Shown in pieces: positions 4,875-18,178 of a stretch of 37,032 nucleotides of DNA. Position 1 is the stretch's first letter, and every line of letters starts with the position of its first letter. This DNA is from a virus. The stretch spans positions 1 to 37,032 of the IMG/VR virus record IMGVR_UViG_3300050821_016542; one strand, 5' to 3'. The notes beneath the pieces were generated by a model. That model was given only the letters and a program-made list of their open reading frames with translations. It was not told the DNA's origin and searched no databases. The position numbers were made by a program, and so were the translations under genes.

Positions 4875-5060
4875 TTATTCAGATTTAATACGATTAAAAA
4901 TCTCTTCTCGATGCACAGGCACTTCCTTATTTGCTATTACGCCAATACGAACTTGGTTACCTTGAACGCTTAATAGGGTCACTTTAATTAGACCATTAAT
5001 TGTCTCGTTCTCATTACCAATCATAAAACTTTCACCAACACGTCTTGTAAAAACCAACAT
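4875..5060 (-). CDS. csrA: CsrA-type global RNA-binding regulator
   Basis: A textbook 61-aa Csr[16 protein letters not shown] at the N-terminus, then [15 protein letters not shown] and the [13 protein letters not shown]-terminal block with the RNA-contacting Arg. CsrA dimers bind GGA in hairpin loops near ribosome binding sites and change translation and stability. Small RNAs with many GGA loops titrate it. GAGG seven bases before the ATG fixes the start; an upstream in-frame ATG four codons earlier lies too close. On a phage it could reprogramme host metabolism or virulence, as proposed for CsrA paralogs on mobile elements of Legionella. A second, divergent copy lies 2.2 kb downstream in the same operon. 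Confidence 0.95.
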
Positions 5061-5077
5061 TATATGCCTCACTACAG

Positions 5078-5238: not shown

Positions 5239-5499
5239 TCATTCTCCTGGAAAGTATGTTTCATCGATTATCTGTTCGAGAGTGAATATGTTTTTCTCTC
5301 TTTTATTAAATACTGATTTTACAGTATTTAGTAAAAATTCTTTATTAATTTTTTCTCTTAATTTTTTAATTAATGATTTTTTTTCATCATTAATGTTAAT
5401 AAAATTATTTTCAATTGTATCAATAAGTAATTTTATTTTTTCTTTTTTTCCATGAATATTATTTATCTCTAGTGTGAAATCCCTGTAAAATTTATCCAT
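5239..5499 (-). CDS. small protein with a DUF29-type C-terminal motif
   Basis: An 86-aa basic, helical protein (MDKFYRDFTLEINN...) that ends in FTLEQIIDETYFPGE. That ending is the C-terminal signature of DUF29 proteins (P.(S/T)LEQ(I/L)LD..F.P). The rest of a DUF29 domain is not obvious, so it is either a very diverged member or an unrelated helical body carrying the same tail. The frame is open 14 codons further upstream, but GGGAG sits just before the chosen ATG. Five other proteins near 15-17 kb share the tail. Confidence 0.7.
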   Translation of the reverse strand: MDKFYRDFTLEINNIHGKKEKIKLLIDTIENNFININDEKKSLIKKLREKINKEFLLNTVKSVFNKREKNIFTLEQIIDETYFPGE

Positions 5500-5541
5500 T
5501 TTTTTTCTCCCACGAATCCCATGTAGTATTTTTATCCACAT

Positions 5542-13757: not shown

Positions 13758-14021
13758 ATGATGTTAATGCACAATCCACCCCATCCTGGGAAAGTTGTTA
13801 AGCGGATGTTGATTGGGGCTAATCTGTCTGTTACAGAGGCTGCAAAAATACTTGGTGTTGAACGAATAAGCTTATCGAAATTGATTAATCAAAAATCAGG
13901 CATCAGTCCTGAAATGGCAGTTAGGCTTTCCTTAGCTTTTAATACAAGCAGTGAGATGTGGGTTAATATGCAAGAAATGTATAATCATTGCAGGGGTGGG
14001 ACTCGAACCCACGACCTCTAG
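13758..14021 (+). CDS. orphan HigA-like XRE antitoxin, 3' end fused into a tRNA
   Basis: An 87-aa frame. Residues 5-76 follow the HigA/VapI pattern: HNPPHPGKVVKRMLIGANLS, VTEAAKILGVERISLSKLIN, then ISPEMAVRLSLAFNTSSEMW. The HTH is complete. The final eleven residues (HCRGGTRTHDL) are antisense reading of the minus-strand tRNA, so the native C-terminus (family usually about 95-105 aa) was replaced when the two came together. No HigB toxin is adjacent. AAAGAGG precedes the ATG. It may repress host or own promoters, or neutralise a host HigB. Confidence 0.85.
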   Translation: MMLMHNPPHPGKVVKRMLIGANLSVTEAAKILGVERISLSKLINQKSGISPEMAVRLSLAFNTSSEMWVNMQEMYNHCRGGTRTHDL

Positions 14022-14060
14022 GTTATGAGCCTAGCAAGCTACCGCTGCTAACACCCTGCT
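13988..14060 (-). tRNA. tRNA-Met (CAU), initiator-like
   Basis: The minus strand folds as a tRNA: acceptor AGCAGGG/CCCTGCA with an unpaired A1-A72, T arm GTGGG/CCCAC with loop TTCGAGT, anticodon arm CTAGG/CCTAG with loop CTCATAA, and variable loop AGGTC. The unpaired 1-72 position and A11-T24 pair are marks of bacterial initiator tRNA. The third mark, three G-C pairs above the anticodon loop, is only partly present (two G-C and one A-T). The D arm is odd, with one extra base before it. CCA is not encoded. Confidence 0.85.
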
Positions 14061-15009: not shown

Positions 15010-15465
15010 ATGAATAAAAGAAAATTAAGAAAGGACTCATTAGATCAGCTTAAATTTTTAATAGAAGTTATACTTAAAGTTAAAACAAAGAGAGATATTA
15101 GTTTTTATGAGGAGGAAGCATTTAAATTTTATGTTTTTAAATTAAGAGAGGCAATAAAATATAATACAAAATTAAAGAAAGATTTAGATGGATTTTCAAG
15201 AAGAGCATATATGAGTATATTTAAACTTCCTGAAAACTTCAAACTTGATAATGAAGCTAAAAAGCTTATTGATAATGAAATGGAAAATAAATTACTCTCG
15301 CCAGAGGAAAAAGTTTATCGAGCACATTCATTGTTTAATGTGAACCCCGTTTTTGATCATATGTCATTAGATGAAATATTGGCATTTGATATTAAAAAAG
15401 AAATAGAATTGAACTCACTGATTAATTTACTCCCCATTCAATCCTCGGATGATTCGCTTCATTAA
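15010..15465 (+). CDS. helical protein with a DUF29-type C-terminal motif (variant)
   Basis: A 151-aa protein, all helical, with MNKRKLRKDSLDQLKFLIEV at the start. Near residue 120 NPVFDHMSLDEILAFDI resembles the DUF29 tail signature (P.SLEQILD.DF.P), though FYP is absent and about 25 residues follow. AAGGATAACTTTA precedes the ATG. It runs convergently into a leftward set of proteins with the same motif. The similarity is limited to the motif, so membership is tentative. Confidence 0.6.
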   Translation: MNKRKLRKDSLDQLKFLIEVILKVKTKRDISFYEEEAFKFYVFKLREAIKYNTKLKKDLDGFSRRAYMSIFKLPENFKLDNEAKKLIDNEMENKLLSPEEKVYRAHSLFNVNPVFDHMSLDEILAFDIKKEIELNSLINLLPIQSSDDSLH

Positions 15466-15809
15466 GTTATTATAGAATTATCATTACTAGGATAAAAGTT
15501 ATAATCCAGTATTTTTTCAAGTGAATATGGTTTTATTTTCTTAATATTAAATCTTTTTTTGAAATAATCATTCATTAGAAAGCAATAAATAGATTCTATA
15601 ATAATATTATTTGATTGTTTAAGTTCTTTTCTGATGAGAGATATTCGAACATGATCATATGGATGTGCTAGCATTGGAGGAATTTTAGATTCTTCAAAAT
15701 CAATAAGCCATTCTATAAGGCCTACCATTTGTGTGAGTTTGTCTAAAGTATAAGTTGAAATATAACGCAACTTTAAATCTTCTTCATTTTCATAATCAAA
15801 ATCTTTCAT
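15462..15809 (-). CDS. small helical protein with DUF29-type C-terminal motif
   Basis: A 115-aa protein. The last part IKPYSLEKILDYNFYPSND is a good DUF29 C-terminal signature. The upstream part (LTQMVGLIEWLIDFEESKI, MLAHPYDHVRISLIRKELKQ) is helical and has the H..L...I pattern expected of the middle of a DUF29 domain, but the N-terminal YAWL block is missing. AAGGTGATTGAT precedes the ATG, and the start overlaps the end of the upstream gene. Confidence 0.7.
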   Translation of the reverse strand: MKDFDYENEEDLKLRYISTYTLDKLTQMVGLIEWLIDFEESKIPPMLAHPYDHVRISLIRKELKQSNNIIIESIYCFLMNDYFKKRFNIKKIKPYSLEKILDYNFYPSNDNSIIT

Positions 15810-16278
15810 TATCAATCACCTTATCACATATTGAAGATAATACTACTTTAACCGCATCATGAATGACTTCAGGTGAAATATTCCCTTCTTTAGGTGCTGA
15901 CTTAATGGTTCTATATTCATGTACACCCCGAGGATAATTTTCAGCATCGGGATAGAAGTCAACATCGAGTATTTGATCTAGTGAGAAATGGGGATATTGA
16001 TTTACTTTAAATTCAAATTCGAACTGTTTTTTTTCATTCAAAATATAATCGAACATACTTTTTAGGTTAAAACCAGCATCTTGAGCCTCTAAAAGAATGG
16101 TTCTTTTATATATTAATCCATTATTTTCTTTTTCTAATTCTTCAATTTCCTTTTCTCGTTTTGCTATTTCATTTGATTTTATGCCGCTATTTCTTATGTT
16201 AATTAGTCTTGTTATAATAGATTTCATGGTATCAAATACCATTAATAAATGTTTTGTTTCAATATATGAAATGCTCAT
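15796..16278 (-). CDS. coiled-coil protein with DUF29-type motif and extra C-terminal tail
   Basis: A 160-aa protein: N-terminal helix (YIETKHLLMVFDTMKSIITR), a coiled coil with IAKREKEIEELEKENNGLIY (residues 38-57), then YPHFSLDQILDVDFYPDAEN near residue 100, a very good DUF29 tail signature, followed by about 45 more residues. AGGATTAAAA precedes the ATG. Coupled to the next gene. The DUF29 core helices are not recognisable, so the motif may be mobile between protein bodies. Confidence 0.7.
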   Translation of the reverse strand: MSISYIETKHLLMVFDTMKSIITRLINIRNSGIKSNEIAKREKEIEELEKENNGLIYKRTILLEAQDAGFNLKSMFDYILNEKKQFEFEFKVNQYPHFSLDQILDVDFYPDAENYPRGVHEYRTIKSAPKEGNISPEVIHDAVKVVLSSICDKVIDNERF

Positions 16279-16445
16279 TTTTAATCCTAATTTTCCTACG
16301 TGAAACAGGTGTTGCTTAAATAAAGTTATCCATGCATGAGCCTATACAGCATATGGGACTTCAATGATTTATCCACACATTTACACACAGAAATTGTGGA
16401 TAAGTTAATGAATGAAATCGCTAAAGCGTGACCGTTTATTCGTGG
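16279..16445. other. candidate replication origin with inverted DnaA boxes
   Basis: In this gene-free gap TTATCCACA (16369-16377) and TGTGGATAA (16395-16403) are two perfect DnaA-box 9-mers facing each other. TTATCCATG (16326-16334) is a near match. A parS half-site TACGTGAAACA (16297-16307) and a short CGCT/AGCG hairpin (from 16419) also lie here. Neighbouring genes point away from or across the gap without sharing it. Paired consensus DnaA boxes fit host-DnaA-dependent initiation. Confidence 0.6.
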
Positions 16446-16907
16446 TTAAAAATAACCCATCAAGATAATTTTATCATAAAGTATGTGTTCTAAAGTAAAC
16501 GGACATTTTTCAGGATAGCTCTCCTCAATTTGATCACTCAATCTTGCCGCTATTAATTTAGCGGTGGGGTAGCCACTTTCTAATGATTCGCAGGTTGAAA
16601 TATAGGATATTAAACTTGGGCTTTTGAATAGAATATTATTAATTTCAGTTCTTTTTCCTTCGATAACACCTTGAGTAAGCCATGCATCACTAAGACGTCT
16701 ATTTTCAGCAATTAAGAAAAATGCCATTAAGTGTTTAAGTAGGGCATCTAATTCACGTGTTACCCTTCTGGAGATACTTTCTATTTCATCGCATATGAAC
16801 CTATAATCACTTTGTGAAATAGAATTAAAATCTTTTTCTATAATTAAGTTAGACATGCGCATCAACCATGCATAATAATCTTTATTGTATTCAGATATTT
16901 CACTCAT
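16446..16907 (-). CDS. DUF29 family protein
   Basis: A 153-aa protein showing a whole DUF29 domain: YNKDYYAWLMRMSNLIIEKD at the N-terminus, IESISRRVTRELDALLKHLM in the middle, then W.....IEGKRTEINNILFKSPSL and the tail YPEKCPFTLEHILYDKI. DUF29 proteins are 140-160 aa and common in cyanobacteria and proteobacteria; their function is unknown. The last motif lacks the usual DFYP. The start overlaps the end of the gene upstream (AATGAGTGA). It anchors the identity of the related motif proteins around it. Confidence 0.85.
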   Translation of the reverse strand: MSEISEYNKDYYAWLMRMSNLIIEKDFNSISQSDYRFICDEIESISRRVTRELDALLKHLMAFFLIAENRRLSDAWLTQGVIEGKRTEINNILFKSPSLISYISTCESLESGYPTAKLIAARLSDQIEESYPEKCPFTLEHILYDKIILMGYF

Positions 16908-17226
16908 TATAAAAGCCAACGTCTATTATCTGTTCAAATGAAAAGTTTGTATTATCTTTTTTGTCTAATTCAACATTAGTGAGTTCATAGCAAGTATATA
17001 TGTGTTTAAATAATGAATCTTTATTGAGTAAATCAACTATTTTTTTTATAAATTCTGGATCCATTTCTTTAATTGTTGACCTTAAATGATCCAAGTTCTT
17101 TTTACTAGGATCTGTATCTTTGTTTTTAGAAATTCTTAATAGATTGATATTTATACTTATAATTTTCTTAATTACTTCAAAAGTAGTTACAGATATTTTC
17201 TGTAGTATTATATCTGGGTCGTTCAT
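16900..17226 (-). CDS. small protein with DUF29-type C-terminal motif
   Basis: A 108-aa helical protein (MNDPDIILQKISVTTFEVIK...) ending NFSFEQIIDVGFYNE, a clear form of the DUF29 tail. The N-terminal body is lysine- and isoleucine-rich with no YAWL block. AAGGAG precedes the ATG, and its stop is overlapped by the start of the bona fide DUF29 gene, so the two are co-translated and may interact. Confidence 0.7.
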   Translation of the reverse strand: MNDPDIILQKISVTTFEVIKKIISININLLRISKNKDTDPSKKNLDHLRSTIKEMDPEFIKKIVDLLNKDSLFKHIYTCYELTNVELDKKDNTNFSFEQIIDVGFYNE

Positions 17227-17370: not shown

Positions 17371-17523
17371 AAGACTTTGTAATCCATGGCACTCAAAGTC
17401 TGAAAAGGCGTATGCTTGGAATGGACTCTGTTCATACGCTTTGATATAATGCTGAAGTCTTCCTATAGGGTAAGTTAGTATCTTCCAAACGTGGAAGCTC
17501 CAGCAAATGCATATAGGAAGACA
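17371..17523 (+). ncRNA. candidate structured small RNA with three stem-loops
   Basis: Right after the promoter come three strong helices. AGACTTTG/CAAAGTCT (17372-17401). AAAGGCGTATG/CATACGCTTT with one bulged G (17404-17442), whose 18-base loop holds two GGA. GTCTTCCTATA/TATAGGAAGAC, a perfect 11-bp closing stem (17457-17522), enclosing CTTCC/GGAAG. No coding frame of note runs rightward here. A clear U run is lacking, so the 3' end is uncertain. GGA in loops makes it a possible CsrA ligand (inference). Confidence 0.6.
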
Positions 17524-17524
17524 T

Positions 17525-17842
17525 TTAAAATATTTTGTAAATTAATGATGTTAAAATTGAAGTTAATACTACAAGAATTGAATGGGATATTTTCCATTGG
17601 AAAGGTTCACAAGAGTATGTAGTTTCAGAAATAATTTTTATACTTTTGTATTTTGCCATTGCATTATTTAAAGATTTCAAAATAAACACAAGTTCATCTA
17701 TCTCTTCTTCAGAGAGTTTTTCACAACATTTAATTTTATTATAAAGAAAATTAGCTTTAAATAAACTCATTGTTATCATTGACTCGTCTTTATATAGATC
17801 AATATTTTCTACATGATTTTTATTTTCTGTTATATCATTCAT
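17525..17842 (-). CDS. tail-anchored membrane protein, 105 aa
   Basis: A soluble acidic N-terminal region and central helix (YNKIKCCEKLSEEEIDELVF) are followed by a single C-terminal hydrophobic span (ISHSILVVLTSILTSLIYKI). It has the same length and layout as the next gene upstream but no visible sequence similarity. AAGGATAATCATTA precedes the ATG. No family recognised; a membrane-targeted exclusion or host-interaction protein would fit but is not shown. Confidence 0.65.
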   Translation of the reverse strand: MNDITENKNHVENIDLYKDESMITMSLFKANFLYNKIKCCEKLSEEEIDELVFILKSLNNAMAKYKSIKIISETTYSCEPFQWKISHSILVVLTSILTSLIYKIF

Positions 17843-17860
17843 TAATGATTATCCTTATTG

Positions 17861-18178
17861 TTATTTTAAAAAACAAACTAAATTATATATGAAAATGGAT
17901 GAATTCAGAGCAAGTATCCCATATATTACGTAAAGTGAAGTTTTTGCTTTTATTGCTATTCTTTGTGATTCCATGCTATTCTTTTCAAGAATTTCAAGCA
18001 ATTCTCGTTCCGGTTCATTTTTTATTGTTTTTTCATAAATATTAGATGTGTTTCTTTTTTTCATTTCTTCCATTATAGAGTCGTACATGTACATAATGGT
18101 TTGTTGAAATTCGATGGGTATATCAAGTTTTACTTGATATTTAGTTTTTTCATCATCTTTTTTGACTTCAAAAATCAT
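17861..18178 (-). CDS. tail-anchored membrane protein, 105 aa (second of the pair)
   Basis: Residues 1-75 are charged and partly beta then helical (MIFEVKKDDEKTKYQVKLDI, then coiled-coil-like ELLEILEKNSMES). Residues 80-104 form one membrane span (SLYVIYGILALNSSIFIYNL). GGAGTAATAAGAA precedes the ATG. It is the first gene of a two-gene leftward unit ending at the ncRNA locus. No family recognised. Confidence 0.65.
   Translation of the reverse strand: MIFEVKKDDEKTKYQVKLDIPIEFQQTIMYMYDSIMEEMKKRNTSNIYEKTIKNEPERELLEILEKNSMESQRIAIKAKTSLYVIYGILALNSSIFIYNLVCFLK

Follow-up and report, generated by a model that had tools for sequence, protein, structure and literature searches.

Gene content of the phage and of the cluster around D

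We analysed the virus record IMGVR_UViG_3300050821_016542 of IMG/VR in its entirety, and the window is this whole stretch of 37,032 bases (GC 32.5%). The phage is known from environmental DNA only. Its genes encode a P22-type portal and coat protein, a terminase, a RecT-like protein, SSB, RusA, Gp157 and CsrA. Searches with portal and terminase returned one 12 kb contig of a single metagenome (100% identical); beyond this contig, all terminase matches were below 41% identity and close relatives of the phage are lacking. The CsrA gene (Pfam E 4.4e-19) adjoins the RecT-like gene, and CsrA together with a HigA-family antitoxin points weakly to a gammaproteobacterial host. At its 3' end the HigA-family gene overlaps a tRNA-Met gene encoded by the other strand, and no HigB toxin was seen beside it.

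The open reading frames named in an earlier note, here called A to F, are all present (Table 1). The end of gene E covers the start of gene D by 8 nt and C and B overlap by 14 nt, which suggests coupled synthesis of the pairs; the ribosome-binding sites are plausible. Gene E has a good Shine-Dalgarno sequence (AAGGAG). Gene F lies apart, in the left, leftward-reading cluster with the CsrA and RecT genes, and its last codons hold the next gene's ribosome-binding site.

Table 1. Positions of the genes, tail motifs and neighbouring features in the window
Feature	Positions	Strand	Description
CsrA gene	4875-5072	-	
Gene F	5239-5499	-	86 aa; C-terminal tail
F tail	5248-5286	-	FTLEQIIDETYFP; 19.4 bits
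Third DnaA-box site	5532-5540		TTATNCACA
HigA-family antitoxin gene	13758-14060		
ORF A	15010-15465	+	proposed weak member, rejected; tail 0.3 bits
Gene B	15462-15809	-	115 aa; predicted helical body without DUF29 sequence signal, DUF29 tail
B tail	15489-15527	-	YSLEKILDYNFYP; 24.2 bits, held-out tail HMM
Gene C	15796-16278	-	160 aa; motif at residues 98-110, then about 50 more residues
C motif	15949-15987	-	FSLDQILDVDFYP; 20.8 bits
Inverted repeat	16360-16412		
DnaA-box sequences	16369-16377, 16395-16403		TTATCCACA
Gene D	16446-16907	-	153 aa; full DUF29 domain protein
D tail	16461-16499	-	FTLEHILYDKIIL; degenerate, without D..FYP; 12.1 bits, tail HMM
Gene E	16900-17226	-	108 aa; tail at extreme C-terminus
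E tail	16906-16944	-	FSFEQIIDVGFYN(E); 8.9 bits, held-out tail HMM; fifth best in window
Hairpin	17455-17522		
105-aa protein gene	17525-17842	-	
105-aa protein gene	17861-18178	-	

D is the only recognisable DUF29 protein of the record

DUF29 is an uncharacterised bacterial protein family. The earlier note had singled out D as the one true DUF29 protein, and D is indeed the sole recognisable one in the record by Pfam: it matches PF01724 with an E-value of 1.5e-20 and 74.3 bits (gathering cut-off 22.5) over profile positions 2-135 of 138. A profile of about 40 DUF29s, built without window sequences, also matched D over its full length. The same holds for PHROG 11797, a group of phage DUF29-like proteins with no recorded function (E 5.8e-7), whereas no match to it was obtained for B, C, E or F. 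A relative of D was sought in the phages collection and none was found.

The AF2 model of D (38 sequences, pLDDT 85.6) predicts helices at residues 6-23, 32-68, 75-95, 99-104 and 106-124 and a tail helix at 139-143, the latter in a high-confidence region. Using VIA-align, the model matched the solved DUF29 structure 3fcn from Rhodospirillum rubrum with Z 11.5 and an rmsd of 4.4 over 129 residues, while the next entry reached 5.9. The alignment covers residues 15-151, including the tail, and D is thereby predicted to adopt the all-helical fold of 3fcn. Its tail is the most degraded of the set: FTLEHIL is followed by YDKIILMGYF, and the second half of the motif is lost.

The DUF29 C-terminal motif recurs on other proteins of the phage

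The C-terminal motif of DUF29 comprises about 13 residues, [FY][ST][LF][ED][QK]I[IL]Dxx[FY][FY]P; membership was tested with the form [FYW][ST]xEQ[IL][LM]Dxx[FY]xP. A loose six-frame regular expression found it in B (15527), C (15987), D (16499), E (16944), F (5286) and A (15361), with one further, unrelated match in a HigA-type antitoxin. Using a tail HMM free of window sequences, the five best matches of the six-frame translation were B, C, F, D and E in this order, with 19-24 bits for B, C and F and 8.9 bits for E. Among 60 dinucleotide-shuffled windows the top single score was 18.0 and the top fifth-ranked score 5.2, compared to 24.2 and 8.9 in the real window. These held-out scores are preferred to those from alignment A2, which includes B, C and F and therefore inflates window scores. 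The profile of about 40 DUF29s also matched B, C, F and E, and the match was confined to the tail (profile positions 121/131-149).

Judged by their sequences, B, C and F are secure carriers of the motif. E is a weaker one, as its proline is replaced by asparagine, but it belongs to the same operon; its tail ends in FYNE instead of the expected FYP because the start codon of D sits there. The signature described in the earlier note for proteins around the DUF29 gene is thus confirmed for B, C, E and the distant F, and the motif occurs three or four times in the record without a DUF29 body. Calling it a tail is correct for B, E and F, where it is terminal, but not for C, where it is internal in contrast to its C-terminal place in the family, and in D itself it is degraded. 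The weaker tail proposed for ORF A fell away, since it reached 0.3 bits and its motif is non-terminal. The body of A resembled DUF29 only at p 0.013 (body-only HMM against shuffles), which the anchored profile test did not confirm.

In cellular genomes the motif is diagnostic of DUF29

A degenerate DNA pattern of the motif gave 37 matches at 35 loci in 257 Gb of prokaryotic genomes; 36 are DUF29 open reading frames or remnants and one (L034) is a chance match. With the tail profile, 14 matches at E ≤0.001 were obtained in 274 gammaproteobacterial genomes, every one coinciding with a separately found DUF29 match or remnant. In ten DUF29-bearing genomes with mapped DUF29 places, the strong tail matches (E <0.01) were likewise all DUF29s or remnants; both profile scans used A2 and hence an alignment including B, C and F. 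A tail detached from DUF29 was not found in the cellular genomes checked by pattern (257 Gb) or profile (274 and ten genomes), and the motif is diagnostic of DUF29. The sole exact match in a virus (L009, 2894-3226) was taken as chance: here, a HigA-type antitoxin of a viral contig starts with a look-alike of the DUF29 tail, YSFEEILDEDYGP (tail HMM score 17 bits), which is probably coincidental.

These data bear on the idea that an AT-rich phage acquired four similar helix-forming peptides by convergence or chance. A look-alike peptide does start the antitoxin of L009 and 18 bits were reached once among the 60 shuffled windows, but three scores of the real window exceed every shuffle, its five best matches are all real genes on the same strand, and exact matches to the motif are rare in 257 Gb. 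The pattern scan, the shuffled windows and the coincidence of tail and DUF29 matches in the 274 genomes largely refute this explanation, which we regard as very improbable.

DUF29 genes are multi-copy in cyanobacteria, in large sulfur bacteria and on plasmids; 18 matches were counted in Achromatium (L031) and 21 in Thiomargarita (L020), tandem arrays and broken copies included. Tandem DUF29 genes of plasmids and large sulfur bacteria resemble the phage cluster in having adjacent or overlapping motif genes, but the adjacent copies that we read there are complete DUF29 domains, whereas the phage carries tails on other bodies. On the E. coli plasmid pSTEC648_2 (L007, 2582-3435), two overlapping DUF29 genes precede one for a DEAD/DEAH helicase. 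We looked for conserved neighbours of DUF29 genes, both on plasmids and in cellular genomes, and found none.

Tails without bodies are a pattern of this single phage, and related viruses do not have these genes. No relatives of B, C, E or F were detected in viral_contigs, among 79 terminase-related viral loci, or in 274 gammaproteobacterial and 385 alphaproteobacterial genomes. PADLOC and NCBIfam gave no usable match for the cluster, and DUF29 was not mentioned by name or accession in the open literature searched.

B, C, E and F carry the tail without a recognisable DUF29 body

The profile-profile comparison proposed in the earlier note aligned B, E, C and F with 45 DUF29s over 21 tail columns only (hhalign, probability 94%, P 9.7e-8). 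For the bodies alone, the hhalign probability was below 1% for B, C, E and F and 98% for D. PF01724 did not match any of the four at E-values up to 10, and a body-only HMM tested against shuffles gave p 0.13-0.68. The anchored profile test of the bodies showed no consistent signal, with only C reaching p 0.046. None of the body hallmarks Y..DFYAW, EEIE, HLLKW, SW..TI.EQR and SPSL is present in these proteins of 86-160 aa, and helices 1-4 with the residues corresponding to W14, E41, R86 and P132 of D were not recognised from sequence.

Across 56 other DUF29s, scores range from 107 to 179 bits for the body and from -0.4 to 42 bits for the tail (median 21.7). The tail is therefore the more variable part, and ordinary decay would lose it first. 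The phage shows the reverse: the tails of B, C and F score about 24, 21 and 20 bits, their bodies about 0. Tails of median strength on bodies without any signal argue that the tail is selected for itself. This agrees with the view of the earlier note that the motif was retained while the rest diverged or was replaced.

Comparing the tails of B, C, E and F pairwise, 17 of 39 identical residues are encoded by different codons, so the tails did not arise by recent copying of a single DNA segment. This motif is genuine; outside the phage it is specific to DUF29, and in the phage its amino acids are kept despite differing codons and without a recognisable body. The same data weigh on the explanation that the genes are decaying DUF29 pseudogenes. 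Fragments and broken copies of DUF29 are common in cellular genomes, but such fragments retain recognisable pieces of the body, while the phage genes are intact reading frames with start sites and tight overlaps that keep their tail residues though codons differ; decay is accordingly highly unlikely.

Tail-anchored alignments of the bodies resulted in p-values of 0.013 (B-C), 0.017 (B-E) and 0.042 (C-E), with no resemblance to D and no kinship of F to the others. On this weak mutual resemblance, B, C and E have the appearance of paralogues and F would be a more distant member of the tail-bearing proteins of the phage.

Two possible readings: truncated duplicates or a docking tail

Structure predictions covered B and D. 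The B model is based on a weak alignment of 4 sequences, and one of five models was good (best pLDDT 78, the others around 50). It predicts helices at residues 9-41, 50-65, 68-79 and 81-86 and a tail helix at 97-101, an order that, in this model from 4 sequences, corresponds to DUF29 without helix 1. Fold searches of PDB and BFVD with this four-sequence model found no solved or viral match, and 3fcn was not among the results. Full DUF29 domains in all proteins, which the earlier note had named as the sign of plain duplication, were thus not seen: the D model matches 3fcn, and the B model lacks both helix 1 and a solved match, but its predicted helix order is DUF29-like.

Because of this helix order, truncated duplication stays a live rival, a serious possibility that we rank second. 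It holds that B, C, E and perhaps F are DUF29 copies whose first helix was lost and whose sequences have diverged past recognition, with a tail that packs internally and docks nothing. In its favour, genes E, D, C and B lie side by side on the same strand, B, C and E resemble each other, and the helices of the B model follow those of the D model minus helix 6-23. Divergence predicts the opposite of what we observed, since in other DUF29s it is the tail that varies more than the body, and a body signal is absent by HMM, hhalign and anchored profile tests. That the B model did not find 3fcn would also speak against duplication, but decides little either way, since Foldseek ranked 3fcn poorly for D too.

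The reading that we place first, and hold tentatively, is that the tail is a separately selected module, kept by the phage on a small protein family and docking on a common partner. Tails on unrelated-looking bodies suggest a working part of its own. The DUF29 body would have been lost or replaced in B, C, E and F while the 13-residue tail was kept as a functional module, which may bring E, D, C, B and F to one common partner; we infer the role of a docking peptide, which the earlier note had suggested, from this arrangement. The partner could be a DUF29 core, either D of the phage itself, whose motif has decayed and whose tail site might be filled in trans, or a DUF29 of the host. Alternatively, a host protein normally bound by DUF29 tails may be the target. 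Against such a module, the structural alignment with 3fcn and the predicted AF2 tail helix put the tail of D within the fold. Judged from the models, DUF29 probably includes the tail as an ordered element of its fold, and conservation of the tail could therefore serve internal packing. A further point against the module is that a single phage shows the pattern.

A special form of the docking-module reading takes D with its decayed tail as the receptor or hub, whose empty tail site would be filled by the intact tails that E, C, B and F supply. The only DUF29 body of the record lacks D..FYP, C, B and F keep it wholly and E nearly, and the E and D genes overlap by 8 nt, but D retains FTLEHIL, which may suffice for its own site; we consider this form improbable. 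In a further reading, which is doubtful, the phage made the DUF29 C-terminal peptide a stand-alone tag on several proteins, either to assemble them on a DUF29 core of its own or of the host or so that they compete for the partner that host DUF29s bind. If true, this would provide the first functional handle on DUF29. The natural separation of tail and body points to which part of DUF29 may carry function, and the tail could serve as a short bait peptide for finding the DUF29 partner.

Further features near the cluster

Upstream of E, two genes encode 105-aa proteins whose only hydrophobic segment forms the extreme C-terminus, an arrangement seen in tail-anchored membrane proteins; neither matched a family. 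Between E and the nearer of these genes lies a long hairpin with an 11-bp outer stem and an inner stem-loop (-22 kcal/mol, z -3.7), for which no Rfam family was found. An inverted repeat between D and C contains two perfect DnaA-box sequences facing each other, and the third and last such site in the window precedes gene F by about 33 nt. Their total is no more than expected by chance; the odd part is their placement.
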